Of a DNA stretch of 64,000 nucleotides, positions 1,222-23,700 are shown piece after piece. The notes under the pieces were generated by a model. It had not been told where the DNA came from, searched no databases, and was given only the letters and a program-made list of their open reading frames with translations. The translations under genes and the position numbers were made by a program. Source of the stretch: Zymoseptoria tritici IPO323 (taxonomy: Eukaryota; Ascomycota; Dothideomycetes; Mycosphaerellales; Mycosphaerellaceae); contig NC_018215.1 of NCBI RefSeq assembly GCF_000219625.1, forward strand, positions 124,001-188,000. Direction: 5' to 3'. The first letter of the stretch is position 1. Every line of letters starts with the position of its first letter.

Positions 1222-1559
1222 TAACCTAGACACTACAAGAACCTAAACTATACTATTGTGCACGCTTAAAGCGTAAAAACCCTCTAGATCTAGTACTAGC
1301 GTCGTCCTTTTTAACTTGTTGCTAACGTAGACTGTCCCTATCCTCGGGTTTTGCACCTACTACGCATGTCTATCGTATGCATTATAGCTAAAAAGAAACA
1401 AAACAAAAGAAACAACAAAAAGAAAAAAGAACCTTAAAACAAGCGCTAGTATAGAAAACAGCCGCTCCTTATGTCCTGTTCGCACTAAAGGTTTCCTAGA
1501 CCCGATGCGGATTTTAGTCTAGCAAAGGCTATAAACCTATCGCTAAGTACTATCCTCCT

Positions 1560-2683: not shown

Positions 2684-2699
2684 CGCGATTCGTTTAAAC

Positions 2700-3895
2700 T
2701 TACGTACTACAGTATCGAACCCCCGATCGATATAGTACCTAAGGCCACTCGCAGACGCGAGGAATCTCCTTCCGACACCTCCGCTCGCTAGCAGGGTGCT
2801 ATACTAGCCGCTAAGTCCGACGCGGACGCCGCCGCCCACCAGCTAAGCGCTACCTCTATCGCGGAAACTATAGACGATGCCGGAACGACCTAGGAAGGCA
2901 CCGACTCGACTACTTAGGCTAACCTAGTTTAAGGGGACGCACTAACCCGTAAGAAACGGAACTAGGAAGCCCGGGCGGAATACGAATTCCTTAAACTCTA
3001 GCAAAAGATTAAGGAACTCTAGAGCGAACTGGCCTTACATAGCCTAATTACCCTAAGGAGGGAGAAACTTGCTAAACTCTTCGTAGAAACGGACTATTTC
3101 GACAAGAACAAGGACAGCCTCCCTAAGTCTAAGGAACTACCTATATTCGAAGGGAAGACCTGTGCCAATTACAAAGACTAGCTCCGCGCGGTAGAACGCA
3201 ACTTCCGCAGATACTATAGATTCTCTAACTAGGAGGACCGAAAGGTCGACTACGCCGCCGACTATATAGGCAAGCTCTAGTAAGACTACTAAGAGCGCTA
3301 CGTAGATTAGCTCGACAGCTAGACTACGCTAACCTAGACTATAATAAAGGGAGTTATGCTTAACTCTATAGGGACAGAGGCGGAACGCCGCGAGAAGGCC
3401 TACGAACAATTGCAGAAGGCCTCCCTCGGAGACCGTACCCTCGACTAGCTCCTCGAAGAGCTAAAGATCCTTTAGAAGGAGTTAGAAGAAGAGAACGAGG
3501 AGCGCAAGATCCTTAACTTTAAGGCCTCCTTGCTATAGAACTACCGCTCCCGCCTCTCTAACTACCCGGCTCCGGCTACTACGCTTATTAAGGCCTAAGA
3601 GAGGGTTAACAAAACCTACAGGATTATCGAGGGTTAGAAGCAGGAGTTAAGGGACAACCCGGGCCGTAGAAGAGGTAAGGGCAACCGAAAGAGACGCAGA
3701 AGCAACAGTATTAACAACTAGGACTCTAAGAAGTCTAAGTCGGAGGACGGATCGGACTAGAGGGGCCTATCTAAGGCTACTTGCTACGGTTGCTGCTAGG
3801 TCGGGCACATTAAGCGCGATTGCCCTAACCCTTCCCTCTAGAAGGACTCGGAAAAAGAGGCGCCCCCCAAGTAGACGCTGCTGTCTTAGTAGGCC
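2700..3895 (+). pseudogene. Element B gag relic
   Basis: One plus-strand frame with TAG/TAA interruptions. It is acidic and alanine-rich at the start, then has a Gag-like helical part (LPIFEGKTCANYKD near 3137). The end is basic and carries a CCHC zinc knuckle at 3782-3823: CYGCC, stop (probable Trp), VGHIKRDC, the CX2CX4HX4C spacing of nucleocapsids. It would package the element RNA. The exact start is not fixed. Confidence 0.7.
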
Positions 3896-6800
3896 AGGTT
3901 CTCTACACTAAGGAGCAGCGCAGGATAGCGGAGCCGGGTCGGCGCCGCTATAAGCGTAGGCGCCTTATCGAAGTTACGCTAACCTTAAATAGTCCAGGGA
4001 GGACTAGAACAGTCGCGGGACTAATCGATAGCGGCGCGCAGGATAACTTCTGTAACTCCTTGTTAGCAAAGGACATAGACTAGGTTATCTAGGAGCCGCC
4101 CGCTAGGGTCGCGTACAAGACGCTAAACAGGCAAAGCCTTTAGGTCCTTGGCGAAACGCGGAGCTTATATAAGGCCCGGGACGACTTAGGACGAATGCAC
4201 GGATGCGTCGACACCTTTAGAGTAGGGCGCATCTATAGCTATAAGGTCGTCTTAGGGATGCCTTAGCTCGAGAAATACAATCTAAACGTAGATTTTACCC
4301 TAAAAAGGGTTAACTAGAGAACGAAGCCCCGAAAACGACAGGCGATAGCCGTCGTTAGGCCAGAGAGGTTCTACAGGGAGTACCTTAGCGAAGTAAATGC
4401 GGCACTTTATGTTATAACGATCCAGGACGCGTCGGAAGAAGCTAGTCCAGGTTAGGGGGGCGTTCCGAGCGCCTACTCTAACTTCGCGGATGTCTTCTCG
4501 GAGGAACTCGCAGGCGAGTTAGCTCCCTACGGTCCACATAATCTAAAGATCGAGCTAGTAGAAGGAGGAAAGGTCCCCTTTAGTCTAATATACGCCCTAT
4601 CCGAGGCAGAGATAGAGGCTATGCGGACCCAGCTACCCGAACACCTAAAGAACGGGTTTATCAGGCGGTCGACGTCGTCGGCTAGCGCTCTAGTCCTCTT
4701 CGCACGGAAGAAGGATAGTACCCTCCGCCTATGTGTTAACTACCGCGGTCTAAACGCGGTAATAGTTAAGAACAGGGGGGGTCTACCTCTTATTAGCGAG
4801 TCCCTCGACTAGCTAGCCGGTGCTAGGTACTTTACTAAGGTCGACCTACGCTATGCGTACTATCGGGTGCGTATTAGGGAAGGCGACGAGTAGAAGACGG
4901 CATTCCGGACCAGGTACGGCTATTTTGAATACACGGTAATGCCATTCGGGCTTTACAATGCCCCGGTAGTGTTCCAGAACTTTATTAACAGCATCCTAGT
5001 AGGACTAATTAATGTCTTCTGCGTTATATACCTTGACGACATCCTAATTTACTCTAGAACGCTTAAAGAGCACGAGGATCACGTCCGGCAGGTCTTAGAA
5101 CGGCTGCGACGGCACAAGCTGTACGCTAACCTAGCTAAATGCGAGTTCTACAAAAGCTAGGTCGAATACCTAGGCTACGTAGTTACCTAGGATAGGCTGC
5201 GGATCGACCTAGAACGCATTAAATCGGTCTAGGAGTGGCTAGTCCCTGCGTCTATCTACGATATAAGGGTCTTTATTAGTTTTGCTAACTACTACCGACG
5301 CTTTATTAAGGGCTTCTCGCGGCTAGCGGCCGCCCTAAACCGCTATACTAAAGGCAAGAAGGCGGCGAACTAGCGCCGAAGAGAGCGTGCTTATCTCGAA
5401 TTAGACGACAGGGCGATCTAGTCCTTCTATAAGCTGCGCCGCAAGTTCGCGGAAGAGCCCGTTCTGCGCTACTATAACCTAGAGCTCCCCTGTTAGGTAG
5501 AGACCGACGCATCGGGGGAAGCAATATCGGGCATCCTGTCCTAGCCTTATAACGAGGGGGGCAAACTACAGTAGTTCCCGGTCGCCTACTTCTTAAGGAA
5601 GATAATTGCGGCAGAAAGGAACTACGGAACAGAAGATAGCGAGCTCCTCGCTGTAGTAGACTCCTTCAAACACTTTAGGCACTACCTCGAGGGCGCCTGC
5701 TACTAAGTAGAGTTACTAACCGACTATGCGAACCTTTAGACCCTTATAACGACGAAGACCCTCTCGAGGAGGCAAGTCAGATAGGCTAAATAGCTGTCGC
5801 AGATCGATTTCAGGACCACGTATAGGCCGGGTAAGGCGAATAGCGCTGCCGACGTACTTAGCAGGAGACTAGACCTTACTAAGGAGTCGCATTCGGGCCG
5901 ATAGGCTACCGAGGAGGAAGCAGACGCTAGCGTCCGCCTCTTCCGAAAGGTATTTGCACCGCCGACAGGGCAGGATAGCCTAGTCCGGTACGTCGGGGCA
6001 GCGGTAAGGACCCCGAACCTTCTAGAGCGGCTTAAGAAAGCCCTTAGTAAGGACCCTACCTATAAGAGGATAGTCCAGGAGAAGGCTGTCGCTAAGCCTA
6101 CCTTCTAGGCGGAGAGGTAGTCCCTAGAAGAGGGCGTTGCGTACATAAATAGTAAGGCATACATGCTAGAAGGCGCTATAAGGCTCTAGCTACTCTAGGA
6201 ATGCTACGACGACCCCCTCTCTAGACATTTCGGCTTTGCAAGGACCCTAGAGTTGCTTTAGCGTAGTTTCTACTAGCCTAGGATGCGGAAGTATGTTAAG
6301 GAGTTCGTAAGGACCTACTAGGCGTGCGAAAGAGCGAAGCTACGAAGGCACAAACTGCACGGCCTACTGCACCCCGAACCCCCCTTGCTAACTCCCTAGG
6401 CCGACATTACGCTGGATTTTATTACTAACCTCCCGCCGAGCAAGTTCCTAAGCTAGTCTTACGACTGCATACTAGTAGTAGTAGACTGCTACACTAAGAT
6501 AGTCTATTACGTGCTATGCCGGAAAACGATTACGTTAGCTAACCTCGCTAAACTTATAATAAGAGAGGTTGTCCGCCTCTATAGCCAGCCGGCTACGATT
6601 ACGTCCGACCGCGGGCTAATCCTTACCTCTAAATTCTAGAGCACCTTCTGCTACTGCCTTAGGGTACGCCGGAAGCTAAGTACGGCGTTCTATCCGCAGA
6701 CGGATAGTTAGACGGAAAGACAGAACCAGATACTAGAGCAGTATTTACGGACGTACTGCAACTATAAGCAGGACAACTAGGCCTCTCTACTGTCGACGGC

Positions 6801-6929
6801 GGAGTTCGCCTATAATAACAGTGTGCATACGGCAACCGGGCTAACGCTGTTCTAAGTATACATAACGAGGGACCTACGAAGGTCCTACTAGCCCAGAATG
6901 CGCTAGAAAGATGGCGAGGCGCTAAAGGC
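3896..6929 (+). pseudogene. Element B pol relic, up to the integrase
   Basis: In order: aspartic protease motif DSGA (4027-4038); reverse transcriptase with LRLCVNYRGLN (near 4720), MPFGLYNAP (4939) and catalytic YLDD (5029-5040); RNase H with VETDASG (near 5500); integrase zinc-binding region (near 6220-6360); and integrase core starting ADITLDFITNLPPSK (near 6400). Stops are TAG/TAA. The frame is cut in the integrase at AAGGC by element C and resumes at 15391. Confidence 0.85.
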
Positions 6930-7231
6930 TGTAATAATGAGTGGTAGGGATGTATGAACAAGCGTACTACTCGGGTGTGCAACAGTGTGAGGATACCGTA
7001 CTATCTGGTGCAAGAGTAATTCTTGCCCTTTCGATCCGCCTACGGCGGCTACCTATTTAACCCTCGAGAGATGGACATGAGTCGGTACGGAATAGGTGCG
7101 GGACGCCTGCGACTCGCTACGCGACATCTGACTCGCACCCGCATGTGCATACCGCAACGATATTACAGGGACTTCGCAACGACCTAAAGGTCCCTGCGGT
7201 CCGCCTACGTTCAGCCTTAGCGCCTTTCACA
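6930..7231 (-). repeat. 3' LTR of element C
   Basis: 302 bp, partner of 15089-15390. The differences I saw are transitions. Confidence 0.92.
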
Positions 7232-7250
7232 CACGCCTCCTCCTTGTGCT
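7232..7250 (-). other. Polypurine tract of element C
   Basis: On the minus strand AAGGAGGAGGCG precedes the 3' LTR. Confidence 0.65.
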
Positions 7251-7676
7251 AATGTCCTTAGCAGTAGAGGCCCTAGCCATCCGCCTACGCCTTCTTGCGC
7301 TTTGTAGTCCTAACTCCCTTAGTATTTATTTCTTACTCCTCTCGGATCCCTTGCGATCCGCTACTGTTCACGTGCCTTTAGTTATCTCGGTTTGGTCGTT
7401 GCAGAGCGTCCGCGTAGCGACAGTCGCTAGGCGCAGCCCCGCGTTGTTATTCCGAATTTTCATTAACACTCTAGTTAATCCTCGGCGGAACGCCCGCGAG
7501 GTTATACCCTAAATATTTTCCTTACGAACGACTTTTTCTCGACGGGACATCTTCTTTTTATACCGCATTCGCAACCAAACTGCAACCGATCCGCAACTAA
7601 TATTACTAACTAATATTATTACCCGCACGCAAGCGTGCCGCGCGCCTCTACAGCTATGGGCTACTAGAAGGGCGCT

Positions 7677-7880
7677 ATGGCGGACTTCGTGTATCTAACG
7701 GACCTGCCAGAAGAAGCTGTCTATAAGTAGAGCGTAGACGACATAGCTCCGGATGCTCCTGCTACCTAGATCGATTGCTATAGGTACGCAAAGTCTATTG
7801 CGGTCGGCAGGGAATGCAACAAGCCGCCAAACAAGGCTTGCAAGTTTTGCAACTCTAACAACCGTAAAGGTTGCTATTAG
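7677..7880 (+). pseudogene. Element C antisense gene, exon 1
   Basis: Plus-strand exon starting at ATG 7677 (MADFVYLTDLPEEAVYK). It is 204 nt, 68 codons. It holds a cysteine cluster ending C-KF-C-NSNNRKG-C, the same CX2CX7C pattern as the antisense gene of element B, and ends two codons after the last cysteine, where a GTACGC donor follows. It starts about 445 bp inside the 3' LTR, opposite to gag-pol. Interruptions are TAG only, so it was probably intact before RIP. Function unknown; the cysteines suggest zinc binding. Confidence 0.7.
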
Positions 7881-7931
7881 GTACGCATGCGCTTCGCTAT
7901 AACTTGTTAACTTCAGCTAACTACATCGCAG

Positions 7932-8303
7932 GTGCTCGGCGGTATGCAGGGTAGAGTTAACAAGATCTATTCCCTCTTTAATATCTACCGCGAGGAAATT
8001 AACCGCGTCCGCCGCGAAATGGAGGAGGAGGGCATCCTATTAGATAACTTAGAGGAGTATGTCCGCGAGGATAACGTAGCTTTTACGGCTAGCCTTAACC
8101 TGTCTCTAGCTGCAAAGACGCATAACTCCGAGATCTAGCAGATAGAGGCGAATGCGTCTTGCTAGGGACACCGGTTGTTTGGCCTAACTTCGAAGCCTCG
8201 TTCTAACATAGAGGCTACTCTCCTCGCCAACGAGGCCGCTGCGCGCCTTAATAGCACACACGCCTCGCAGGTAGCTAGCATGTTTTCTTCTGGCGCGTCG
8301 CGC
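7932..8303 (+). pseudogene. Element C antisense gene, exon 2
   Basis: 372 nt, 124 codons, phase 0 at both ends. It follows a 51 bp intron (7881-7931; branch GCTAAC, acceptor CGCAG). It encodes a charged helix likely to form a coiled coil (EEINRVRREMEEEGILLDNL) and then an alanine/serine-rich part with two TAG codons. It ends at a GTATGT donor. Confidence 0.7.
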
Positions 8304-8361
8304 GTATGTTGTCCTGTAACTATACCGTAACAACCTTTTACTGACTTTTTGCTTTCTTTAG

Positions 8362-9774
8362 ACTCCCCGCTCTAACGGAGTGATCGAACTACATCTCGCC
8401 GCACGCCCTTTCGCCTCTAACGAACAGGGTGCGATTACCTTTAGCTCTAGCCCTGCCGATATGCATCTCCTATCCAACCGTAAGGCCCCTAGCACCCCCT
8501 CGACTCGCGTTAACGACTGTAGCGCCTCTGGCGCAACCGCGGCTGCTAGTGGCGACTCAGAGGATAAAGGCGATAGAGACTACAATAAGGATGCTAGCTT
8601 AAGCAAGGTGTCCGACACCGAGGAATCGTCCGAGGACGAAGAAGAGGAAGATGTCGTCTACTCCCCTACGGTCCGCCGTAGTCGCAGTCGCGGCTCCTCT
8701 AACAACGGTAGGGCTTCTAGTAGCCGCGTGCTAAAGAGCAAGTCGCCTCGCAAGGGCGGCAGTGCTCTCCGCCTCGCGAAGGAGAAGCGTACGAAAGCAG
8801 CGCATAAGGCGGCTCGCTAGGAGTAGCATGCCTGTTACGATAAGTAGCGCTGTGCTATCCGCTCGGCTAACAAGCGCACCCGTTCTCGTAGCGGAGGTGT
8901 TTCTGTTCCTGCCGCGCAAGGCAGCCGCACCGGTGCCGCCGGCGACGACTTTATCCGCAACCGCTCGGTTAACTGTATAACCTTTGATAAGAACACCCTT
9001 CTAGGCAGCCCGGAGGGTACTCCTACTCGCGACAACCGCGGTCGCTAACCTCTTACCGAGATCGATCCCGCAATAATAAGTAGCGCTCTTCTAAACTCGG
9101 TAACTAAGCAGGACCGTCTTCGCCGCCAGATCGCCGACAACTAAGCTAAAGCTCTGCGCCTCGATTAACAGCTTGCGGAGCGCACCTAAGAGGACCTCGA
9201 TCGTAAGGCTAGAATATTTAATAGTACCGCCGGTGGCCGTCCTGCTACTCTATTCAACGCTAGCTCGGCTGATCCACCTCTGAACCTTACTACGCCTACG
9301 GCTCGCACTAACTCTGCATCAACTCCCTAATCTGCTCGTCTTACCCTCCTTCGCGAGCGCTAGCGCATCTGCGAGGAGTAAGTCCAAGAGGCTCGCTAGC
9401 GTAAGATTAAGCGCACCGCTATGATCTAGCGCGAGCGCGACTAGCGCTAAGCACGAGAGGAGCAGGCCCGTGTGGCGGAGGAGGAGTCCCGCGAGATTAC
9501 CCGTACTGCTGTCGCTAATGTAGTTCTTTGTATTAAGGCTAACCGCAACGCACCCGCAGGTACTCCGCTAAGTAGTAACTATATCCTCGGAGGTCTTTAG
9601 ACTCCTAGGACTTGTAGCGACCCGACGGCGGCAAACCCTAACCTACTGCCTCGCTCCGTTCGAGAGGAGGTGTACCTTTAATTCCCTGCTAATCCTAACT
9701 ACCGCAATCAAATTATGCAGGCTTATCTAGCGGATTACTTAGAGGATCTGGCGCGTAAGAACGACGCTCTATAA
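8362..9774 (+). pseudogene. Element C antisense gene, exon 3
   Basis: It joins in frame after a 58 bp intron (8304-8361; donor GTATGT, branch TTACTGAC, acceptor TTTCTTTAG). About 470 codons lie in one frame with only TAG/TAA stops. It has a serine-rich part, an acidic run (SSEDEEEEDVVYSP), a basic SR-like part (RRSRSRGSSN, KSKSPRKGG), a charged helical region and a final block ending YLEDLARKNDAL. The total product is about 660 residues. No family recognised; the layout suggests a nucleic-acid or chromatin binder. The stop may be at 9774 or about 40 bp later. Confidence 0.65.
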
Positions 9775-10029
9775 AGAGTAGATCTCCGCACCGACTCCGC
9801 ACCTATCTCGTAACGACTTGTTATCGTGACTGCAACTCGCAGTTACTACTATAATAACTTCTCTTCTTTAACATAGCGCATTTTCCAGGCGCGGGCAATT
9901 AGTTAGATTAGAGTCTCGAATGCGATACGCATAGGACGACACCGACTTGGTAGTTCGACAATACTAATATGTTTAATCGTAATCTATGTTCTCCTAGTCT
10001 TTTGCTGTAACTTCGCAGTAACTTCCTAT

Positions 10030-13000
10030 TCTTGTAACAGCTCGTCTATATCTTCGAAATTATTAGCGGTTTGCTATGTATCACAAGTCTCGTCATAGTC
10101 TTTCTATCTTAATCGATACTACATCTCGCCGTCGCGAGTCCGCTAGTCTACAATTCTTTCGACCTCGTATACCTCGTTGCTATCCGTAGTAACATCCGGT
10201 AGCTTAACATTCTTTAGCTCGAAGCTAGGTCTGATATAGTATAGTTGTAGTAGTAAGATATGGAAGACGTTATAGATCTGCTATAACGAAGGCAGCACTA
10301 GGCGGTACGCCTACGCCTTCTCTCTAATTACATCGTCTACTCGGAAAGGTCCTACGAACCTAGGTAATAGCTTCCGGCTTGGCTTCTTTAACTTCAGATT
10401 TTTCGCACTTAGCAATACTAAGTCGCCCCTGCGGAACGCATAGTTGCGATGCTTCTTATCGTACGCCCTTTGCTAGTACTTCTAAGAGGTCTTAAGCTTC
10501 TTCGTAGCTAATTCGCGTGCGCTTTGCATCTCCTCGAACCGCTCGATTGCTACCGGCGCCTCCCCTTTGTAATAAACGGCCTCGTTTATATCGTTCTATC
10601 GTGGATTCTCTCTATATACTAGGAAAAAAGGCGTTTTCCCTATACTTAAATAGTCCGAGTTGTTATAAGCGAATTTAGCGTATAGCAACAACTTAGCCCA
10701 ATTATCCTGTCTTTTATTACAGAATGCTCTTAGGAATCCTTCTAGCGTCTGGTTCTAACGCTTAGTTTGACCATCTGTTTGCGGATAGTACGCGGTACTT
10801 AGTCTTCTTCTTATCTAGTATTGAAAACACAGCTCTATCCAAAATGCAGATATAAAGAGTGTACTACAGTCGGACATAATGCCTTTAGAGAAACCAAATT
10901 TGGACGCTACCCGATCTATGAATACTTTAGCGAAGTCTGAAGCTTTCTAAGTTTCTTTTCCTAGAATATACAATACTATCTTTAATCGTCTGTCCACGAT
11001 TACAAGTATAGAATCGAATATATTATCGTTACGCTTCGACGGCGGCAACTTTACGATAAAATCTAGGGTAATTTCTTCCTAATTCTTTCCTAGAATTAGC
11101 AGGCTGGATAATTTGCCCAAGGGCAACAATCTCGGAGCCTTTATTCGTTAGCAGACATTACATGTCTTTACGAAGTGCTTAACATCCGCGTCCAGTTCGG
11201 GCTAGTATAAGGACCTCGCAATAAGCTTAATAGTCTTGTCGGCGCCGAAATGTCCTACAAGCTTAGAGTCGTGGTAAACCGCTATAACTTCGTTCCTTAC
11301 AGCCGGTTTATTTAGTACATACAACTTGCCGTACCTACGGAGCAAGTTGTCGTCTCCTAAGCTCTATACTTAACTCCCGCGCTTCTTTCGACTCTCTATC
11401 TATACCTCTTCGCCAGATCTCTATCGCTTAACAAAGTCGTTACGATCCTGTAGTAAAGATACTAGCTTAAGGAAAGGTTTTAAATCTTCCGAAGATGCAG
11501 TTGCGCTAGTAAGTAGGACTTTTGCTACATAGCGTGGCACGATCTGCATACATTTAGAAGTGCTAGCGACGGGGGATTTCGCAGAGACTGCGTCGCTTTA
11601 GTCCGGGAGGTCGTTGCGATCTCCCTACGGTATTATACCGCAATCGGGTCCCTAATCCTTTTCGGTTGCAATCCTGGCGAACGCAACTATTATGCTCTGA
11701 CTTGCTAACTTCAGCTTGTTCTACAGAGTTAGAAGTAGTTCGTTTACAGCCGAATTTTTAGTCTAGTAATCCGGTCTGCGAGATAGTCTATCTGCTAGGT
11801 TCGATTTCCCTGCTTAATAGAAAATCTCGAAGTCGAATAAGCCTAGGTATAGTGCGTACTGCGCTTGCCTCGCATTCAACTTCTAAACAGTCTGAATGCC
11901 TTTTAGATTGTTGTAGTCCGTGTAAACCTAGACCGGGTTTTCCGAACTACTAAAATAGTGCCTCTACACCTTAAAGCAGTGCACTATTGCTAACAACTCC
12001 TAATCGTACGTCTAGTAGTTGCGCTCCGCAGGCTACATCTTCCGAGACGTAAACGCTACAGGATGCTATTTACTATCTAGATGCAGCTGCGACATAATAC
12101 CTAAGATACCAAAGTTAGAGGCATCCGTTTCTAGCTTAATCTTCCGTTTCGGATCGAAGTGCCTAAGAACAATATTGCTAGTAAACACCTCCTTTAGCTT
12201 TCTGAAAGCCGCGTTAGCTTCCCTGCCCTATACGAACTCCTTGTCTTTCTAGAGCAGGTCGGTAATCGGGCTGCTAATCTTTACAAATCCTAATACGAAG
12301 CGTTAGTAGAAGTTTGCAAAACCTAGGAAGACCTAAACGTCGTAGACGCTATTCGGTTGCGGCTATTCCTAGATCGTTGCGATCTTTTTAGGGTCGGTAG
12401 TTACACCTTTAGTCGTAATACAGAACCCTAAATACGAAACCTCCTGTACCGCGAAGGCACACTTCTTAAGGTTGACGTACAATTCTGCAATGCGCAAGCG
12501 GTCTAGGACCTTGCGAACCGCAGCCTAATAGTCTTCGATATCCTTACTGTAGGTGTAAATTAATATATCGTCGAGGTACACTATATAAAGGTTATCGAGA
12601 AGGCCCGCTAGGGTACAGTTAATATAGGCCTAGAATGTGGCCGGAGCATTGGTTAAGCCGAAGGGCATAACCTTATACTCGTAATAGCTATACCGCGTGC
12701 GGAACGCAGTCTTCTATTTATCGCCCTTACGAATGCGGATGCGATGATATGCTTTCTTAAGATCGAGGGTAGTAAAGAACTTCGCACCTATTAGGCGATC
12801 TAAGGTTTTATTAATTAAAGGCAGAGGGCATCTGTCTTTGATAGTAATAGAGTTAAGTGCTCGGTAGTCGACGCACAAGCGCAGCTCGCCGCCCTTCTTT
12901 GGAACAAAGATAACTAGTGCACCCGTAGGGCTAATGCTGTGTTGTATACGACCCGAGGCTAACTCCTTTTCTAGGTAATCCCGAAGGATACCTAACTCTT

Positions 13001-13700
13001 TCTCCGAGAGATTGTATAGGGAGCTATATAGTAGTTCCCGGCCCTTAACTAAGTTAATAGCATAGTCGGTAGCTCGATGCGTTAGCAACGCAGAAGCGGA
13101 GTTAGAGTTAAATACGTCGGTATAGTCTAAGAGAGCCGTAGGGATTTTAACTACCTTCACTTCAGCTAAGCCGACAGTGTATACGAGGCGCACGGATCCC
13201 GCAGGTATTACTATAATCCACCCGACGACAACAAGCGGAGTCTTGTCGTTCCTTAACTCTTTCTTTAACCTTTTGTACGAGATCCTGCCGATAGTTTCGG
13301 TCCCCAGACCCTATCGCCAGGTTCCTATACCGACCTGGATGTTAATTCCTTTCGTCGTTATAGTATGTTGTCTAAAGAGGATCTCTAGTCCATCCTTGTC
13401 TACCCTATACATAAGTATAGTGTGTTCTTTGACGATACTATTGTCGTCTATTATCCGAATAGGAACATTATACGCGCTATAACAGGTTATGCTTTAATCT
13501 TAAAGCTAAACCAGAGATAGGAGTTCGGCCTCGACCGTTGCGAGGTCGTAGCGAACTGTAAACTTCTGGTCGATTAGGGTGATTTGCGACCCTGTATTAA
13601 ACGTGGCGGAGACTATGCGATGTCCCTGCGACAATATAATATCGACCTATCGAGTAATAACCTGTCTAGCTTCGACAGGCCGCACTAATTTCGGCTTCGT
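10030..13700 (-). pseudogene. Element C pol relic with chromodomain
   Basis: The longest intact part (13193 to 12714) is the start of the reverse transcriptase with ELRLCVDYRALNSITIKDR and TTLDLKKAYHRIRI. Catalytic YLDD is at 12567-12578. The integrase core reads ITLDFIVKLPPSK near 11050, with the downstream YYPQTDGQTKR block. The end has a chromodomain-like YEVERIVD...YRLR-stop-KDYDET near 10080-10160. Stops are TAG. Confidence 0.8.
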
Positions 13701-13849
13701 TACACTTTGTGCAGTTGCGACGAAGCCTATCCTTTTCCCAAACCGATTAGGGCTCGGTTTGGATTTCTACCTCCCTGTCCTTTCTAGGGACAGGTAGTTA
13801 AGACATAACCAGCTTTTCCGCATGTCTAGTAGCTAACAGTAGAGGATAA

Positions 13850-14980
13850 ATCGGCGGGGCGCGAAGGGAGATTGGAGCCTCCTCTAAAGCCCCTACGATT
13901 TCCTCTACTACGATTGTTACCGTTGCCTCTCTGGCCTCCTCTACGGTTATTCCTATTAGAGTTTCGGCCCTAGCTGTTATTTCTTAGCTCGCGGTTGCGA
14001 GGCGCTAGCGTCTTAGAAGGTTCTGGAGGTTTCTAACTAGTGCTTGTAGAGGGAGCTTTTACATCCTTAATGTTCTTCTCTATGCGAGACGCAAGGTCCA
14101 CAAGCTCTGTGCGAGTAGTTAGTATTATATTATAATCTATAATCTTAATGCGAACATCCTTACGGAGTCGCACATAAAACATGTACAACGACCATTCCTC
14201 CGAAGGTAATAGTGGAAGCTGAGCTTCGATGCTTTCCAAGTATGTAAGGAACGAGCGTACGGACTAATCCTTGCCTTGTACCGCGACGCGATGCTTTTCA
14301 AAGGACTCGAGCTTACGAGCGTCCAGATCGTCTAGCAGGTTGTTAAGGAATTCCATAAATCCTACCTAAGTTACTGCGGTACGCAGGTTAGGGTTGTTAG
14401 CCTACCAGCTGTACTAGCGTTCTCTTAGATCGTAAGAGTGCGCCAGGTATTACATAGACTATATGACCTTCTGAGAATTACTGCGGAACGACTACGGTGC
14501 ATTAGCAAATGCAAGCTCGCATTCGAAGCGCTAGTTACGCAGCTCCTTCACGCTCTTGCCCTTAAGGTCGAAAGGCTTCTTAATATCAATCTTGGCTCTT
14601 CCAACTCCGGCAAACTCTTCATCGGACCGCACCCTTTTGTGTCCGGTTACGCGACTGTGGGCGATATCGTCCGCTAAGTTCTCGTTAAGTTCCTTTATCT
14701 TTCTGAGCTTTTTCCGAAGGAAAGCTTTGGCAAGAGCCTCTTCCGCGGCAACGGCAGCCTGGAGGTCGACTATTTCGTCGATTTCGGCATTGTCGTCTTC
14801 GTTCCCCTCGGCGGGATCCGCCGGCAGAGTAGTTGCGTGCTCTTCCTTAGAGAGTGTCGAGGTAACATCGTCACCTTCCTCTTAGTCGGCAATAAGGTTA
14901 TCTTGGTCGTTATTAACAACTTCCTTAATGCGACCCGCATCGGCAGCAGCTTCGGCAGCAATGCCCTGTTTATCGGGCAT
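13850..14980 (-). pseudogene. Element C gag relic
   Basis: Minus-strand frame from ATG at 14980 (MPDKQGIAAEAAADAG), acidic and alanine-rich at first, then a basic helical part. A Gag-type region reads EAQLPLLPSEEWSLYMFYVRLRKDV at 14130-14230. It has few stops compared with element A. The gag/pol boundary is approximate. Confidence 0.65.
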
Positions 14981-15088
14981 AGCGCTACTTATAAGTAGCT
15001 CGTCTCTTCCTATAGCGACCCTAGTAGTTCGCTTAGGTAGCATCCTCGGACTGTTACCCTTGTAGTAAAGGTTAAGGAAGAATTACTA

Positions 15089-15390
15089 TGTAATAATAAG
15101 TGGTAGGGATGTATAAACAAGCGTACTACTCGGGTATGCAACAGTATAAGGATACCGTACTATCTAGTGCAAGAGTAATTCTTGCCCTTTCGATCCGCCT
15201 ACGGCGGCTACCTATTTAACCCTCGAGAGATGGACACGAGTCGGTGCAGAATGGGTGCGGGACGCCTGCGACTCGCTGCGCGACATCTGACTCGCACCCG
15301 CATGTGCACACCGCAACGATATCGCAGGGACTTCGCAACGACCTAAAGGTCCCTACGGTCCGCCTGCGTTCAGCCTTGGCGCCTTTCACA
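15089..15390 (-). repeat. 5' LTR of element C
   Basis: 302 bp partner of 6930-7231. Confidence 0.92.
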
Positions 15391-15958
15391 AAGGCTGTCT
15401 AACTCGCGGAGCAGATGATTACTAACTAGAAGAAGATGCGCGAAAGACTGGCCAAGACAAAGAAACAGATAGCTAAGTAGGCGAACAAGTATAGGAAGGA
15501 CGTCTCCTTTAACGTAGGTAACGAAGTCTACCTAAATACGAAGAACATTAAGTCCATGCGGCCGTTACCTAAGCTCGACTATAAGTACATCGGACTATAC
15601 AAGGTTAAGGCAATAGTTAACTACGTAACATATACACTCGACCTCCCTAGCTCGCTAAGCATCTACCCTACCTTCCACGTCTCGCTCCTTAAGAAGTCCA
15701 TCCCGGACCACTCTGGCCGCAAATAGGACAAAATAAAGCGGTACGACGTAGGGGACGGGGACGAATAGGAGGTAGAAGACATCTTAGATAAGAAAGAGGA
15801 TAACCTACACAACTTTAGTTACCTAATTAAGTAGAAGGGCTTCGGGGAGTACGAGAACTCCTAGGAGCCTAGATATAACATAAGCCCGGCGGCAATAAGA
15901 GCATTCCGCCGCAAGATAGGCTAGAAGGAGCTAAAAAGGCGTAGGAAGATGTAAGAAA
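15391..15958 (+). pseudogene. Element B integrase C-terminus and chromodomain
   Basis: This is the continuation of pol after removal of element C. It contains the GPY-like segment (VGNEVYLNTKNIK, then YKVKAIVNYVTYTLDLP and TFHVSLLKKS) followed by a chromodomain (EVEDILDKK, then YLIK-stop-KGFGEYENS-stop-EP, where the stops sit at tryptophan positions expected in chromodomains). Chromodomains steer integration to marked chromatin, which fits an insertion into an older repeat. Confidence 0.8.
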
Positions 15959-16074
15959 AATCCCGAGGATTTCTAAGGGACTTAGACAAAATCACTTAAA
16001 TTTGAAAATTCGAAGGGCGGAATCGGCTTTATTCTAGTCTAATCTGGTCTAAGTTAACTAACTCTGCGCTATTT

Positions 16075-16431
16075 AACAACTATCTAGGCCCCGCTATAGT
16101 CTTAATATGCTATGTCGACGTTATCTGTTATACCCCTAGTCCCGGAAGACCTACGCCCGCTATTCTAGTCTAGAATGGCTTAATTAAAGTCGGAGTCGCC
16201 CTAGTTCGGGTCCTCTACCTTACTACGGTCCTTAGCGGTCGTCGGAAAGACTATCTTGCGCAACTATCCCTTCTTTAGAGCCTGGTCGCTTATAACAATG
16301 CGGTTAAACGCCTCTAAGGTAGTGCTAACCGCGATCAGGCGATTCTCGGCCTCCTTAGCACGCTTACGGTCCGACTTGCGGCCGCGCACATCTATTAAGC
16401 GGCGCTTCTTGCTAGGGGTACTACTAGACTG
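16075..16431 (-). pseudogene. Element B antisense gene, exon 3
   Basis: It follows a 49 bp intron (16432-16480; GTATGT donor, TTACTAAC branch, TTATAG acceptor) that joins the frames at phase 0. It starts QSSSTPSKKRRLIDVRGRK, a basic stretch resembling a nuclear localisation signal, then continues as a helical KRAKEAENRLIAVSTTLEAF segment. The end is approximate. Confidence 0.6.
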
Positions 16432-16480
16432 CTATAAGGAATGTTAGTAAGGGCTAGATTAAGCTAGGGATAGTACATAC

Positions 16481-16801
16481 AGCCTTCGCTAAGATCGCAC
16501 TAGCCGAGCGGTCCCTCTTAGGCACCTTCTGTCTAGTATCCTCCTAGGTAGCAGTGCCAGGATACTAGGAGAGACCGTCCTCGCTACGGAAACTGCTATC
16601 TAACTTCCTATTTAACTATCCTAATTAGCTGCTAGTCTAGAACACGCTAGAAAGGGACACTTACGCCTCTACAGAGCCTGTGAAACACAGAACACGATCT
16701 AGCAAGTCTTCCTTCTTAGCCTTAGACTAGGTAGTGCGGCCGTAGACGGTGTCGATGTCCTGCTTAATAGCTTTCTAGGCGGGCTCCTAGTCGACCGGCA
16801 T
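16481..16801 (-). pseudogene. Element B antisense gene, exon 2
   Basis: 321 nt, 107 codons in one frame. It follows a 53 bp intron (16802-16854; donor GTAGGT, branch GCTAAC, acceptor CTTAG). The product is polar, with KAKKEDLLDRVL and KVPKRDRSASA segments. It ends at a GTATGT donor. Confidence 0.65.
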
Positions 16802-16854
16802 CTAAGTAGGACAGTTAGCAACAGAACACGCTAGAATTAACTAAACCGACCTAC

Positions 16855-17070
16855 CTAAAGACAGTCCGCATTCTTGCTAGTTAGGCATCCGGAACACTTA
16901 GCCAGGATGTTGCCGGGTAGGGGCTTCTCTGCCGCAATCTAGCAGATCTTAGACAGGTCCTAGCCCTCCTTAACGCTAGAGAGGCATAACGAGCACGGAT
17001 TCTCGTTCCACCTGCCAGCTCGGACTTTCTTGTAGTACTTGTCGCGAAGATAGTAGAGTGCGCCGGACAT
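16855..17070 (-). pseudogene. Element B antisense gene, exon 1
   Basis: Minus-strand exon starting at ATG (17070-17068): MSGALYYLRDKYYKKV, then cysteine pairs CSLC and CSGC, and the motif CX2CX7C (C-SG-C-7 residues-C). It is 216 nt, exactly 72 codons, ending two codons after the last cysteine. A GTAGGT donor follows. It lies 280 bp inside the 3' LTR, opposite to gag-pol. Interruptions are TAG only. It is the counterpart of 7677-7880 in element C. Confidence 0.7.
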
Positions 17071-17333
17071 TATGCTAATCTAGTCGCAATGTTAGCTAAT
17101 CTAGCGCTAATCTAGACCGTTCTAGAGCTAGCTGCTAGTACTTACTTTTAGTAGGTGTTTGTAAGAAGAGAAGAATTCGAGGGCGAGAAAGAGTGGTATA
17201 TGCGCGAGGGACCTACTTTTATTTCCTAATCGGGACACCGAGCAGCTGGCCTAGCAACGTTAGCAGTTGGTAAATTAAACCTGCAGCTGAACGCTACTAA
17301 AGATTCGCGCACGCAACTAAGGTTAGTCGCACC

Positions 17334-17349
17334 GGGGGGAGGGGGGCAA
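17334..17349 (+). other. Polypurine tract of element B
   Basis: A G-rich purine run (GGGGGGAGGGGGGCAA) immediately before the 3' LTR. Confidence 0.8.
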
Positions 17350-17727
17350 TGTAAGGATCCCCTTACGTAAGCGCAGTCTGGCCTTATCTCCCCTAAGCTG
17401 GGCCAACCTGGTTTCGAAGAACACAACAACGAGCTATCCTAGTTACGAAGAGCGCAACAGCGTACGGATTAAGGCAGTCCGATCTAGCTTGCCTCTTAAT
17501 GCCCAACGATGAGGATCGAAGGGCCACGAAGGGACAGACGATCCCGCTTATAACGAGAGAAGTGAAGGATAGGGGAATAGAACCTAGCAGTAGCTGTGTA
17601 TATAGCGAAGGAGGCTCTCCTCCTCCATTCCCTCCTTTAACGAATCGAGTCGTTACATTCTGAAACCTATTGTTCGATACTTCCCTACTTCAGTCTTTCC
17701 CTGCCTTATCACGAGGCAATCCTAACA
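17350..17727 (+). repeat. 3' LTR of element B
   Basis: 378 bp partner of 2306-2683, preceded by a polypurine tract and followed by the CTACT duplication. Confidence 0.92.
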
Positions 17728-17732
17728 CTACT
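17728..17732 (+). other. Right target-site duplication of element B (CTACT)
   Basis: It matches 2301-2305 exactly. Removing element B rejoins the third ORF of element A in frame. Confidence 0.85.
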
Positions 17733-19770
17733 CCGTCTACGCAGTTGTTAGCCTTTATCTACTAGTACTATTCCTAAAAGATCTCCTTCTCGTACATCCT
17801 CTTAACGAGCACCGTACAGTCCTTCTTACCCTCGTCTGTTAAGGAGACCGTACCTTAAATCTAGTTAATACCGCGATTCTCCTCGACTATACGGCTAACC
17901 GTAAGGTCGATATGCTTAAAGGTAGTGTTGTCGCCCTTCTTAGTGCTTTTAGCGTAGTATAGGTACGACACTAGCCGGTGCTTATAGTTACCTCGCAGAA
18001 GAATATATAGCAGCTAGTATAAAATGTCCTAGCGGATAAGCTACTAGATCTAAGAGTAGCATATCGTGCGAAGCTATCCGTAGTTAGGCTAGCTATTAAT
18101 TTCGCGCTAATGCTACAAGTACATATCTATTTCCTTATTAATAATCTTGCAAAGGGCCTTGTCCTGTCCGATCTACGCGAAGAGGGGAATATTAAGCGTG
18201 CCATTTCTCTTAAACTCGTGCTCCTCACCGGGCGTTAAGTATATCGCTTAGCGAGCCTTATTAAAGAAGCCGTTAAAGTTAAGCTAGCCGAGTTCTCTAC
18301 GTAGGACGTTATTGTCGAAGCGGTACGGCCTAAGGAAGTCCGATAGTCGAGGCGGACGAGTATCCTTAAACTACATCTTATACGTCTCGGAACCTGTCTT
18401 TAGCTAGCTAAGCTTATACGTATCGTACTTAAGGGTAGTAAGTCTAAAGAGCGTATTGTTCTTTGCTATTATATTCCCGGTCTTTACCTTAATTCCGAAG
18501 TACCGAAGTAGGTCCCTCGCATAATTGTAGTATAGGAACGTGCACTTATCCTTTAGCTTCGTACTGTCCGGATATAGTAGCTATAGGCATCGAAACAGCT
18601 AGTTCGGGGTAGCAAGACGTTACGAAAGCGGAAGCCTCCTTAGGCTATTAATTGTAGCGATAATTTAAGGTAAGGCGTCCTTATAATTATAGGTCGTGTT
18701 CGTAGGTTCCGTAATAGGCATGCCGAGAGCGATCTATGTTTTAGTTACTGCCTAACTTACCGAGCGAGCCCTTCCCGTAGTGCGAATAATAGGAGACGCG
18801 TAGATACTCCCTCCGAGACTAGGGCTAGAAATAGATCTGCCGGAGTATAGTATTTAGGGGCGGCCGGAGCTACTCTCGGAAGGGGTACCGCGTATAGGAA
18901 GACTGCCGAGATTAGCTAGCTTTTCCTTAGTTTTAGACCGCGTACTTATAGCGGGAGGTGCTTCGATCTACTTCTAAGTGTTAGATCTAGACGCAATTTC
19001 CTTCTTCTTTCCCTTAGGCTTATAGGGCACTATCTACCTACGACTATCTATGCGCCGGTTATATATGTTACGCACGATATTAATCTACTCCTATATAGGG
19101 CGATCGATTCCTCCTACTTTAGCGACTATAGCGAAGTCCTTAGTAGTGTACTTAGTCCCTCTCGGATCCGAATAACCCTGTCCTACGCCCTAACTATACC
19201 GACGAATGTATTCTCGTAAAATAAGTATAGCTACTATCGTACCCTTATCGGACTACGTACTATACTTCGAAGGCAGCCTTCGAATCTCTTTTGCTATGTT
19301 CTCGGATTTATATACGTATTACCTTAGTTCCGGGTTTGTATCTATTACCTCCTGTCCCTATTCTTTTATAAGGGCCTCGTAAATAGCCTTCTTACGGTTA
19401 CGGGTCTTCCTACTATCCGTAGCTACCTACACTAGCCTCGGATAAGTAGCTGCAATACTGTCCTGTCTAGTAATCTTCCCGGTTCCTAAGGTAATAGGGA
19501 CCCGGTTTATCCGCACGAAATCCTATATACCTACTATAAACTCTACTACTTTTTCTAATCCTAATTCTAAGGTATTAACAATATCTAATACTACTCGCTC
19601 GCGGTCCGCGTCTAGTATACTCTTAAGGAGACTCTCGAGTTTTCCTAGCTCTCTAGTGTTCTACGTAGTCGAGAAGGCTATACGCATTTCTTTATTGTTT
19701 GTTAAGGGTGCGCTCCGGAGGCGAGCTAGGATGTTGTCTATGTCGGTAGTAGTATATATAGTTGCGCTCG
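17733..19770 (-). pseudogene. Element A third ORF, N-terminal part (HxD-motif protein)
   Basis: A single minus-strand frame reads through about 2 kb with only TAG/TAA interruptions. It contains RPYRFDNN, then a conserved-looking block (NGTLNIPLFA, IGQDKALCKIINKEID, LRGNYKHRLVSYLYY, then TTFKHIDL). The HID triad, a downstream MY that could be a RIP-mutated MH, and a later ERRTILP arginine segment are arranged like the HxD...H...R of Fe(II)/2-oxoglutarate dioxygenases. This assignment is inference and needs a profile search. The frame is broken at 17733 by element B and resumes at 2300. The start is not fixed: an ATG exists near 19,680, and the frame is open to about 19,770. Confidence 0.5.
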
Positions 19771-19774
19771 TTGT

Positions 19775-20340
19775 AGAGGTATATTATGTGCGCTCGGTGC
19801 GCTTGTATCGTTTCGAAGCTGTTTTTGCGCTAATGCGCTTAGTTAGTATGTATGTTATATACGCTCGGCGCGCTCGGTGTTGTTTTACGCTAATACGCTC
19901 GGTTAGTAAGTATGTCGAGGGGGGAGGTGTAAGGAGATAGGAAAGAAAGAAGATGTAGTAGATGTTGTAGGGAAGTCGGAGATGTAGAGAAGATTAAGGC
20001 TGTTAAGTAAGGCGAGTAGGTAGAAAGCGGGTCCCTTACTTGTTCGTAAATTGTATGTTCGTAAATTATATACGTACTTATGCTCGTAATTATTAGAAGA
20101 GCTCGTAATTGTTAGGAAAGGCCTATAATTGTTATGTCGGTAATTGTTGTGTCGGTAATTGTTACGTCGGTAATTGTTACGTACGTAGGTGCTCGTATTA
20201 GTAGTCTCGTAATTGTAGCAGAATGTGCATAATTGTCTAGGAAAAGGTAGCCTAGCCCCTAAATGTCCGAAAGGGCGACTAAGCTTCGTAAATTGTAACT
20301 CCCTCCCCTTTAGGGTAGAGAAAGTATGTTTAGTACGCTC
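19775..20340. repeat. Short-repeat spacer between pol and ORF3 of element A
   Basis: At 19780-19920 a block with GCGCTCGGTGCGCT and GTTAGTATGTATGT occurs twice in degenerate form. At 20040-20240 a motif like GTCGGTAATTGTTA is repeated, with three close copies about 16 bp apart and several looser ones. There is no credible coding frame. It lies directly upstream of ORF3 and could hold its promoter or a structured RNA region. Confidence 0.45.
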
Positions 20341-20403
20341 TAAACAATAGTAGATTAGCCGTAACTAGTAGAGACACCTAGGTAATGTTCTATCCTTCGC
20401 AAA

Positions 20404-20442
20404 TGTTTACTAGACCCCTTTTTCTAAATAGTCTAGCAAATA
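20404..20442. repeat. Palindromic element copy 1
   Basis: TGTTTACTAGAC, a 15 bp spacer, then GTCTAGCAAATA. The arms are inverted repeats; the final ACA is now ATA. Confidence 0.6.
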
Positions 20443-20641
20443 ACTAGGCCTATCCGGCAGCACTAGCCTTTAAAAGATGTCCTATACTTGTTTAGCTATG
20501 TCGGTAGGTAGGCGTCGAGGACGGAGATAAGGTCGTGCCGGGGGAGTCTTATTGTAGGCGAAAAGAGCTCCCTTTAATACAAAGAAATATATATGTCTCT
20601 TTAGGTAATAATAATGTTTACCCGAGAGAGCGAGCGGAGCC

Positions 20642-20668
20642 TTTGCTAGACTACCGGTCTAGAAAACA
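20642..20668. repeat. Palindromic element copy 2 (diverged)
   Basis: TTTGCTAGAC, 5 bp, GTCTAGAAAACA. Confidence 0.5.
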
Positions 20669-20698
20669 ACTATAGTAAGCCGAGAGCATACGTCGCTA

Positions 20699-20727
20699 TG
20701 TTTACTAGACCCTTAGTCTAGGAAACA
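20699..20727. repeat. Palindromic element copy 3
   Basis: TGTTTACTAGAC, 5 bp spacer, GTCTAGGAAACA: 12 bp arms matching except at one central position. Confidence 0.65.
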
Positions 20728-20799
20728 TTTTAATGCGAATTATAGCCGCACTTAGATTCTTAAGTACTATAATCGTTCTTCCGGGGACAGCGAGGATTC

Positions 20800-23700
20800 C
20801 CTTACCCCCTATACGATATTCGGAGGTCCGGGAGCCGGTTCTCTATACTATTTAGCGGTAGGGTCGTCGCCCTAAGCTAATGCCGGCTCTTTATCCTTAC
20901 TCTTAACACTTATAAGCTATTTAGGGTTTAAGTCCCTGCGTGTTAGCTTTTCGAGCTTATTAATATACTCGAGGTAGTCTGTAGGGACTACCCGAAGCAT
21001 GTCCCTAGACTATGTACCTTAGAGCTCTGCCTCGTCTAGCTCTATAATCTTATAGGTACCGGTGTCTAGGCTTATACTTATTACTCGGTAGGGCCCCTTC
21101 TATCGAAAGGACAGCTTCTCGTAGGTAGACTTTCGCTCGCCTCTTTTTAATAGCACGAGCTACCCCTTCTTAAGCGGCTTATTGTCGACATTATAGTTTA
21201 TATCCTAGTACTCCTTCTAGGCATCTCGTAGCCTACGCTATAGGGCGGTAACTTCTCTAACATCCTTCTTAGAGCAGAAGATCTGCCTTACTCGAGCGGC
21301 TAGTAAGTCTTCGGTCGTACGAACCGTCTTCTAGTTAATCGTTTTCTAAGTGTCGTACTGTAGCTTAATAGGTAGGACAACATTAAATGTATAAAAAAGA
21401 CTTGCTGGCGTACATCCCGTAGACCTACGAACAGTAGTGCGGTCTACCTATAGTGCTACGTAGAAAAAGGATCTCTAGCCCTTTAGCTTGCCCTACGTGC
21501 ACTTTAAGAGGACGTCTAGGATGTTAGGATGTCTACGCTCGACTAGACCGTTCGCTTTAGGGTAGTAGGCGGACATACGACTAAGGTTTATATCTATTTA
21601 AGCTAGCAGTTTAGGTACATCGCCGTAGTTCTTAGGCCCTCTATTAAAGAAGATCCGGTTATAGGCTCTAGTGCGTAAGAAGACGTCCTTAAAAAGAAAC
21701 TTCGCGACCTACTTTAAGCTTACACCTTAATTCTGCCCCTTATTTACGATCCTTTCTTCCGGCTATCTAGAGAGAGACTCCCTAGCTATAATAATGCTTC
21801 CGGAGCTATCGACATAAACGACGTCTATATACTACGACTCGCTAATATAGCTATTATATCTTAGGTGTAGTTCCGATATACTCGCTAGTCCGGACGATCG
21901 AAGAAGACACTTAGGGCACTTTCCGACGAAATCTCGGACCTACTTATATAGTCCCTACTAGTAATACCGACAAGCGATCTTTATATAGGTCCCTTTACGC
22001 CCTCTATAGCCGGAGGTAGGGTCCCTATAGAGGGTACGGATAATCGACTTCTACTTAGACTCCTTATCGATAACTCTATATAGCGGCTTATTAATTCTTT
22101 TCTAATACTATAGGCAGCGCTCCCTAACTAAGTAGCGAGATGCCCGTTTCTTAAAGGTATACTAGCTATTCCTGTTTACTCCTACCGGTCGTCGAAGGGT
22201 TAGGAGGTAGTATATTATATCGCGGTAGAAGTCCGAGAGGAAGCCGTTAATACTATTCCGAACAAGTTCCTCTTCTAGAGTAGGGGTAATCTCTTCGGCC
22301 TCGACACGATTCGCGTACACTATATATAGCGTACTATTAATTATTTCTTCGTAGTCCTACTTATACTCCTCGTCGATGTTATCGGACTAAGTACGCGGTC
22401 GTCGAGACAGCGCATCTGTAGCACTATATAGTCGGCCGGGAACATACTTTACATCGAAATTAAACAGTCGTATCTATAAAAGCTACCTTATTATTACTAC
22501 GTTAGGTAAGTCGGTCGGTAGTCGGTTTAACTAATAGACTAGAGTATTCGCATTTAGCTTAAGTAGGAAGTAAATACCGTAGAGATAGTGCTTTAGCTTT
22601 TTTAATGCCTTTAAAACACCGAGACACTTAAGTTTCCTAGTATTAAACTTTCGCTCGTTCGGCTTCTAGATGCCGCTTTTATACCGAGATAGGTATCTTG
22701 TCTTATAGTTGTCGATACCTCGTTACATAAGGACTGCTCCGAACCTATCCCCGGATGTATTAATAGTAAGGATAATCTGTCCTCCCGAAACGTAGTCTAT
22801 AGTCTTAAGAGCCGGTGTAGTAACGAGAGCCTTCTTTAATTTCTCTATCAATACGTTATGCTCGGCGGTCTAACACTAGCACACATTAGGCTTTAGTAGA
22901 TTGTATAGCGGAGCTAACACCTATACATACTTCTTAATCTAGATGCGGAAGTATACGACTACGCCTAGGAATACTCGAACCTCCTTAGGGTTGTCTAGAG
23001 TAGGCTACTCGGTAATCTTAACGACTCGTACTTTATTAGGGTAACGGCTATACACATCGTAAACGTACCCGACAATTAGTACCCCTATCGAGAACTATCG
23101 CGACTTAAGAGCTAATATAGTAAGTCCGGCTCTCTTAATGTCGGTAAGGACTATGTTAAGGTTCGTAACATATTTAGCAACCTAACGTCGGATGCCGGGC
23201 TCGGTTTCCTCGTTATCGTACGTAGTGCGGGGACCTTTAACTCTAATGTCGTCTAGAAAGGGGCGAGCTCGGTAATTTATATGCTCCTAAAGGATAGTAG
23301 TTATAATCCTTTAGAACTAAGCGACCGAATTCGTTCCGCCTATAGGAATCCCTATGTGCCTAAACAGCCCGAGCAGTATATAAAAGGAGGTAAGGTCCCG
23401 ACAGTACTCGGCTAGGGGTATTTAGTCGTATCTAGAGAAGAGGTCTATAAGCGAGGTAGTAGTGCACCCTACGAAGTCTACGGAAAAGGAGTCTACGTCC
23501 GGTAGCATATTAGCATCCCTTAGCGTAACACGGTTTACTTCTATAGCTAAGTTAATAAGTCGGTACTTCTTCTCCTCCTTCTTTTCCTAAATACGCTCCC
23601 CTTCCGGTATAGGGTCCTTAGCTTTTAGTAGCTTTAGGTTGTCTAGCTTCTTTTATACGATAAACTAGGGGTTCCGGTATGCACTATAGGATAGCTCGAT

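Follow-up and report, generated by a model that had tools for sequence, protein, structure and literature searches.

Why should a retrotransposon carry an apparently spliced gene on the strand opposite to its own gag-pol? This question is raised by a 64,000-base stretch of the Zymoseptoria tritici IPO323 genome (bases 124001–188000 of contig 4; hereafter, the window), in which two nested long terminal repeat (LTR) retrotransposons, elements B and C, each carry an antisense gene in the interval between pol and the 3' LTR. The whole genome of 39.69 Mb in 21 contigs was searched, and the copy counts given below are lower bounds. The antisense gene was found in most copies of B and of two related families, B' and B'', and not as a single transduced copy, and we are confident that it is real and coding. 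At a probability of about 0.57, we believe that B, C, B', and B'' are Ty3/Gypsy elements with a third, antisense protein gene, the product of which would be a nuclear regulator.

The antisense gene in elements B and C

The first-pass annotation of this DNA had placed a gene opposite gag-pol, just inside the 3' LTR, in both B and C. The coordinates, the lengths of exon 1, and the positions and lengths of the phase-0 introns were confirmed, as follows.

16855–17070, minus strand: B exon 1, ATG at 17070, 72 codons
16861–16995, minus strand: six-cysteine region of B exon 1
16802–16854, minus strand: B intron 1, 53 bp, phase 0
16481–16801, minus strand: B exon 2, 107 codons
16432–16480, minus strand: B intron 2, 49 bp, phase 0
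16075–16431, minus strand: B exon 3, 3' end not fixed
7677–7880, plus strand: C exon 1, ATG at 7677, 68 codons, ending in TAG at the intron
7776–7874, plus strand: cysteine region of C exon 1
7881–7931, plus strand: C intron 1, 51 bp, phase 0
7932–8303, plus strand: C exon 2, 372 bp in all 12 aligned copies
8304–8361, plus strand: C intron 2, 58 bp, phase 0
8362–9774, plus strand: C exon 3, with acidic and basic stretches followed by a long helix-like stretch (by eye)

Both copies in the window are broken by repeat-induced point mutation (RIP). The extent first given for the B gene stands, except that its 3' end at 16075 is not fixed, because a true stop is indistinguishable from stops made by RIP, and that a probable extra intron lies upstream of the ATG (17145–17080, described below).

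The host elements have LTRs, a 5-bp target duplication, and a pol with a chromodomain-like end, which are the criteria of chromodomain Ty3/Gypsy elements. Element C (6930–15390) is a complete insertion nested in element B (2306–17727), and gag-pol is on the plus strand in B and on the minus strand in C. In both, the antisense gene occupies the interval that separates pol from the 3' LTR; it is on the opposite strand and does not overlap pol. The chromodomain-like pol end was recognized in B, B', and C by eye and not by profile.

2306–2683, plus strand: 5' LTR of B (LTRs 376–378 bp, 96.0% identical)
17350–17727, plus strand: 3' LTR of B, pairing with 2306–2683
2301–2305 and 17728–17732: target duplication of B, CTACT, 5 bp
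15403–15960, plus strand: C-terminal integrase and chromodomain of B pol, stopping short of the antisense gene
15089–15390, minus strand: 5' LTR of C, pairing with 6930–7231
6930–7231, minus strand: 3' LTR of C (LTRs 302 bp, 94.4% identical)
6925–6929 and 15391–15395: target duplication of C, AAGGC, 5 bp
9775–10310, minus strand: stretch within which C pol has its chromodomain-like end, opposite the antisense gene and without overlap

Recurrence in related families and shared anatomy

A search with B exon 1 returned 66 places in the genome, 21 at 89–100% identity and 45 at 38–54% (weakest E value, 0.07), and by this sequence comparison the 45 places form a sister family, B'. The pol end of B was then used as a probe, for which 150 of the 217 candidates were scored; the pairing of pol with exon 1 excluded the 31 weakest matches. 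Among the 21 B copies, 20 had exon 1 on the opposite strand, 1346–1359 bp from the pol end, and exon 1 was opposite pol in 44 of 45 B' copies (40 at 1362–1388 bp and 4 at 1559–2982 bp). In the remaining B copy, exon 1 was 8.3 kb from the pol end, with a B'' insertion between them. The same probe brought up the third family, B'', at 53 places with 46–56% identity; exon 1 was within 3 kb of the pol end in 43 of these, at 6.6–8.7 kb in 7, and absent in 3. When two B'' copies were read, L067 proved to have an antisense exon whose cysteine layout and intron 1 place were those of B and B', and L066, which is cut off by other sequence, had no antisense exon. Exon 1 of L067 as query returned 52 B'' places and, independently, 21 B' places (E values from 1.6e-4 to 0.022). 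By sequence similarity, the antisense gene is homologous among B, B', and B'', and the homologues that the first-pass annotation had expected in other elements were thus found beside pol. At G000:C4:949008-957511, a B'' element lies within a B element and separates the B pol from the antisense gene, so B'' moved later than that B copy.

The pol proteins of B and B' were 70% identical over 1054 amino acids, and the best stretch shared by B and C was 49% identical over 198 amino acids. The antisense identity of B and B' was lower (49% in exon 1, 30% in exon 2, and 28% in exon 3), which indicates a fast-evolving gene. The recurrence in related families suggests that the elements use the gene, and since it spans families with a best pol stretch of 49% identity, it is probably important to them. 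This accessory gene is old. In element C, the exon 3 piece matched 16 places in the genome and the exon 1 piece matched 14 (one of them weak), with the window included and some of the places being fragments.

The CX2CX7C motif noticed at first is present in both window genes, but it is part of a larger motif of six cysteines. The spacings in exon 1 were 2-13-15-2-7 in B, 2-13-14-2-7 in B', 2-13-21-2-4 in B'', and 2-9-7-2-7 in C, and exon 1 of both B and C ends in C-X2-C-X7-C-X-(TAG)|GT. In all four families, introns 1 and 2 are both in phase 0, and intron 1 follows the last cysteine by two codons; in B, B', and B'', intron 2 immediately precedes a T-P-x-K-R-like stretch. The proposed conservation of exon 1 between B and C held for the cysteine layout and the intron place but, as far as the alignments indicate, not for the sequence: the C rows were 18–20% identical to a B' row, whereas the B rows were 49–52% identical to it. 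The window's C copy has five of the six cysteines, the second being tyrosine. The aligned C copies have cysteine here in 8 of 12 cases and tyrosine in 4 of 12, which is the change expected from RIP.

The splice sites were compared among copies. Of the 31 rows in the B/B' alignment, 12 stood for the 45 B' places and the rest came from 19 of the 21 B places; L031 and L037 were dropped for 1-bp indels, and L046 and L065 are one copy, so that the 31 splice rows represent 30 copies and the 33 upstream rows represent 32. Intron 1 was GT...TAG in all 31 rows, and intron 2 had GT in 25 and AG in 31 of 31. In B'', for which 12 of the 52 places were examined, intron 1 (53 or 49 bp, with a 4-bp indel in 3 of 12 loci) had the donor GTA and the acceptor AAAAG in all 12. 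An extra 49-bp intron inside B'' exon 2 was GT...AG in 11 of 12 loci; exon 2 is in frame only after its removal, and was then 273 bp long in all 8 loci where it could be measured. The alignment of C held 12 copies, with the rearranged or cut copies L012–L015 kept outside it. Intron 1 of C had GT and AG in 12 of 12 (52 bp in one copy), and intron 2 had GT in 11 (ATATAT in the other) and AG in 12 (57 bp in one copy). Exon 3 of C was 1413 bp in 10 of 11 translated copies and 1407 bp in one. The exons of the 12 C copies held one indel of 6 bp, and introns 1 and 2 held one 1-bp indel each, in single copies.

A further intron in the 5' untranslated region (5' UTR) is probably common to B and B', as judged from the following signals. 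In 32 of 33 rows, a donor was present at −75 in B and at −72 in B', reading GTAAGTA except for GTGAGTA in one copy; a branch-like GCTAACATT follows, and the AG is 7–9 bases ahead of the ATG. By eye, the region before the B'' ATG showed no such intron, and C showed no clear one.

17080–17145, minus strand: probable 5'-UTR intron of B, 66 bp, GTAAGTA...GCTAACATT...CTAG
17334–17346, plus strand: polypurine tract of B
17313–17330, no strand assigned: palindrome adjoining the polypurine tract of B, GCAACTAA-GG-TTAGTCGC, with one mismatch here

This 18-base palindrome, GCAACTRACCTYAGTTGC on the strand of the antisense gene, fitted a RIP-tolerant pattern in 27 of 33 B/B' rows, and many siblings of the window's copy have it without any mismatch. 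Element C contains a single instance of its half, GCAACTAA, at 7593, which is 84 bases upstream of the antisense ATG. RNA folding at the polypurine tract gave no clear hairpin signal (z of −1.5 and 0.02). The palindrome may serve as an operator or form an RNA hairpin.

Coding evidence and rival explanations

The repeat-rich left part of the window carries RIP-type mutation, with TA/AT ratios of 1.64 in C and 2.0–2.4 in both parts of B; the ratio was also 2.0–2.4 in 20000–33000 and, for contrast, 0.57 in 48000–64000. RIP converts TGA to TAA in every frame, so TGA is scarce in RIPped elements. In element C, TGA occurs 53 times and TAG/TAA 918 times (both strands, all frames pooled). The observation that only TAG and TAA stops interrupt the claimed frames, offered earlier as evidence for the genes, is therefore uninformative, and in RIPped copies other frames have stop counts as low as those of the claimed frame.

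Evidence for coding came instead from C-lineage copies outside the alignment. L014 (G000:C6:647004), L015 (G000:C7:2430694), and L060 (G000:C11:376241) are short C-type antisense fragments that escaped RIP, with TA/AT ratios of 0.36–0.49 (L014 0.36, L015 0.49). Next to L015, and on its strand, is a reading frame that resembles an RNase H by eye. In L014, the claimed frame is open for 245 codons, and the five other frames have 2–7 stops. Between C exon 3 and L014, over 245 codons, the transversions at codon positions 1, 2, and 3 numbered 6, 12, and 22, respectively (p = 0.007), and the transitions numbered 34, 14, and 77, respectively; the indels were of 21, 3, 3, and 3 bases. This result was identical by protein-guided and by plain DNA alignment. 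The gapless comparison of C with L012 gave 11, 6, and 18, respectively (p = 0.044). With protein-guided alignment, the counts were 35, 32, and 64 between L014 and L015 (127 codons, p = 0.0008) and 74, 64, and 95 between B and B' (p = 0.040), and position 3 was highest in all 228 B–B' row pairs, which are not independent of each other. The B versus B' exon 1 score was 70 bits in the claimed frame and 40 in the best other frame. The copy L012 itself (G000:C7:1826783-1830238) has its exon 2 broken upstream by a non-LTR reverse transcriptase-like end (by eye), and a C exon 1 is found at C7:1822084, 6.2 kb before it; a long interspersed nuclear element has probably inserted into the C antisense gene here.

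Under the explanation that we prefer, the antisense mRNA would be made from a promoter in the roughly 200–450 bases between the 3' LTR and the ATG and would be spliced at the conserved sites. An antisense transcript of its own would be needed because the sense RNA is not spliceable at these sites. Reverse transcription leaves intact any intron that is antisense to the genomic RNA, and the earlier argument that such introns would persist through retrotransposition was sound. The earlier reading of these as separate antisense genes, putatively spliced and conserved between elements, is upheld. The protein would fold around zinc, as the six cysteines with two C-X2-C pairs suggest, and would enter the nucleus, as suggested by the basic clusters KKRR, KRSR, and KKRDR (by eye). 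It would then bind the DNA or RNA of its element and might regulate the expression or integration of that element in trans, by analogy to HBZ, the antisense gene of human T-cell leukemia virus type 1 (HTLV-1), and to plant antisense open reading frames (ORFs). The step to a nuclear regulator, drawn from this analogy, has in our opinion slightly less than an even chance. A bolder form, an ancient class of multi-intron regulators in at least four Gypsy families, whose zinc protein would act in trans, perhaps via the GCAACTAA palindrome, is doubtful.

Several results weigh against the preferred explanation. At the C start codon, ATG is present in 1 of 12 copies, that of the window, and the other 11 aligned copies have ATA; both window copies do start with ATG, as first reported. 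Stops in RIPped C exon 3 averaged 18.5 in the claimed frame versus 14.3 and 17.5 in two others. With plain DNA alignment, the transversions between L014 and L015 were 24, 22, and 32 (p = 0.34) and no exon reached p < 0.05 for transversions between B and B', so the codon-position bias in these two comparisons depends on the alignment method. A B'' exon 3 query did not recover exon 3 of B or B'. The antisense product matched no Pfam family at the cut-off, the Zn(II)2Cys6 profile (PF00172) failed on it, and a PDB profile search found no solved structure (one match, E value 6.4). Among about 5.8 billion proteins, no homologue was found, although this collection is possibly poor in fungi, so that the empty protein searches do not confine the family to this genome. 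Finally, zinc binding, nuclear entry, and regulation are inferred properties of the product.

Other candidate identities were also examined. In the genome scan with PF00172, none of the 119 matches listed (150 of 166 candidates scored) was within 1.5 kb of the 132 exon 1 places. Among the Pfam matches up to an E value of 10, neither TRP28 of Retand (PF04195) nor any bZIP family was present; Zn_ribbon_19 (E value 0.073, one C exon 1) was a weak lead and was not used. In viral contigs, 75 stretches fitted the pattern and 0 were confirmed.

Chance is one rival, because RIP leaves few TGA codons and many TA-rich, branch-like, and acceptor-like words, from which open-looking stretches with splice-like sites could arise, and the stop counts fail to single out the frame. 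The fixed position, the homology, the conserved intron places, and the C–L014 comparison speak against it, and B, B', and B'' contradict it; we consider it extremely improbable. It is also improbable, to a lesser degree, that the antisense RNA itself controls the element, by pairing or through small RNAs, with the reading frame as a by-product. In Blumeria hordei, transposons, Ty3 elements included, are documented to give rise to spliced antisense long non-coding RNAs (PMC10648671), antisense RNA would arise under the preferred explanation too, and the codon-position bias was alignment-dependent in two of four comparisons. What argues for a protein is the third-position excess with whole-codon indels in the C–L014 comparison by either alignment method, the gapless third-position excess of C–L012, and a cysteine spacing kept across about 50% protein divergence.

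If a protein is made, it might assist the particle or integration by binding nucleic acid, for example as a zinc-knuckle-like chaperone or a targeting factor, and not be a transcription regulator. The combination of a six-cysteine domain and basic stretches would be compatible with any form of RNA or DNA binding; a helper made in step with Gag, however, would need no antisense promoter, and the antisense protein of the plant element Grande is described as nuclear (PMC11963269), so we regard this alternative as unlikely. The gene may also be a direct homologue of brtn, the antisense gene of Boty-like elements in Botrytis, and hence an old gene of Pezizomycotina chromoviruses. The place, the orientation, and the element type match what is described for Botrytis (PMC4227169, PMC7264820), but the comparison is with a description of brtn and covers these three features. 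We hold this possibility tentatively, and it is compatible with the preferred explanation of a nuclear regulator.

Around the two elements, 20000–33000 was the most heavily RIPped among the stretches compared, with TGA 0 times on the plus strand and 4 times on the minus strand in 13 kb and a (CA+TG)/(AC+GT) ratio of 0.29. A direct repeat (902–1197 and 29689–29984, 96% identical, 28.8 kb apart) probably represents the LTRs of an outer element that received B together with C. Within the RIPped block, there is also a repeat of about 170 bases (28624–28789 and 28971–29136, 80% identical). An Rfam search of window positions 1–20000 found nothing useful.

Comparison with known systems

HBZ of HTLV-1 is a bZIP protein. 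Like HBZ, the gene described here is an antisense gene of a retroelement, and the HBZ product is a nuclear regulator; unlike HBZ, the product of the B and C type has six cysteines and, in Pfam, no match to a bZIP family. In their order, C-X2-C...C...C-X2-C...C with two C-X2-C pairs, the six cysteines also resemble those of the Zn(II)2Cys6 fungal regulators. The loops differ, being C-X2-C-X9-13-C-X7-21-C-X2-C-X4-7-C and longer in the first half.

Studies have shown that plant elements carry a comparable gene, and HBZ is named as an antisense parallel in one of them (PMC11963269). The plant aORF-3R (gene23 of Grande, RIRE2, and TRP28 of Retand) is antisense, lies between pol and the 3' LTR, and is present in most copies of whole lineages, and its products have been proposed to be DNA-binding regulators (PMC11963269, PMC7264820). 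The gene of B and C is like aORF-3R in orientation, in place, and in its presence in most copies of a family. It differs from the Retand ORF in having no TRP28 match, and Retand elements are described as non-chromoviruses (PMC11963269). PMC7264820 and the consulted portions of PMC11963269 make no mention of introns.

The parallels drawn in the first-pass annotation, HBZ and the plant antisense ORFs, were apt, but the closest precedent was missed. This is brtn, the antisense gene of Boty-like Gypsy elements in Botrytis cinerea (Zhao et al. 2011, Virology 417:248, as cited in PMC7264820, PMC8365987, PMC4227169, and PMC5987419). The Boty-like element is described as having gag, reverse transcriptase, integrase, a chromodomain, and an extra antisense gene between pol and the 3' LTR (PMC4227169, PMC7264820), and brtn is reported as absent from the latest annotation of its genome (PMC8365987). 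The present gene is like brtn in that its host is a fungal chromodomain Gypsy element and in that it is antisense to gag-pol in the same interval. By sequence, the present gene is interrupted by at least two introns, and it occurs in four families of one genome.

None of the titles and abstract openings searched reported a Zymoseptoria Gypsy element with a spliced antisense gene for a protein, and the word "antisense" was not found in the consulted text of the Z. tritici papers PMC10936205 and PMC9970103 or of the fungal LTR survey PMC3248453. Antisense genes of LTR retrotransposons are known but unexplained, and a spliced, cysteine-rich version would offer a concrete and testable system, in which the introns let the antisense mRNA be easily distinguished from genomic RNA in stranded RNA sequencing. 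Such a gene would probably escape an annotation restricted to gag and pol. Under the bolder and doubtful form of the preferred explanation, these elements would be systems that carry their own transcription factor. The kind of gene is already known, from plant aORF-3R and Botrytis brtn; what is new, as far as the literature searched extends, is the apparently spliced form, the six-cysteine domain, and the occurrence in four families of one genome.

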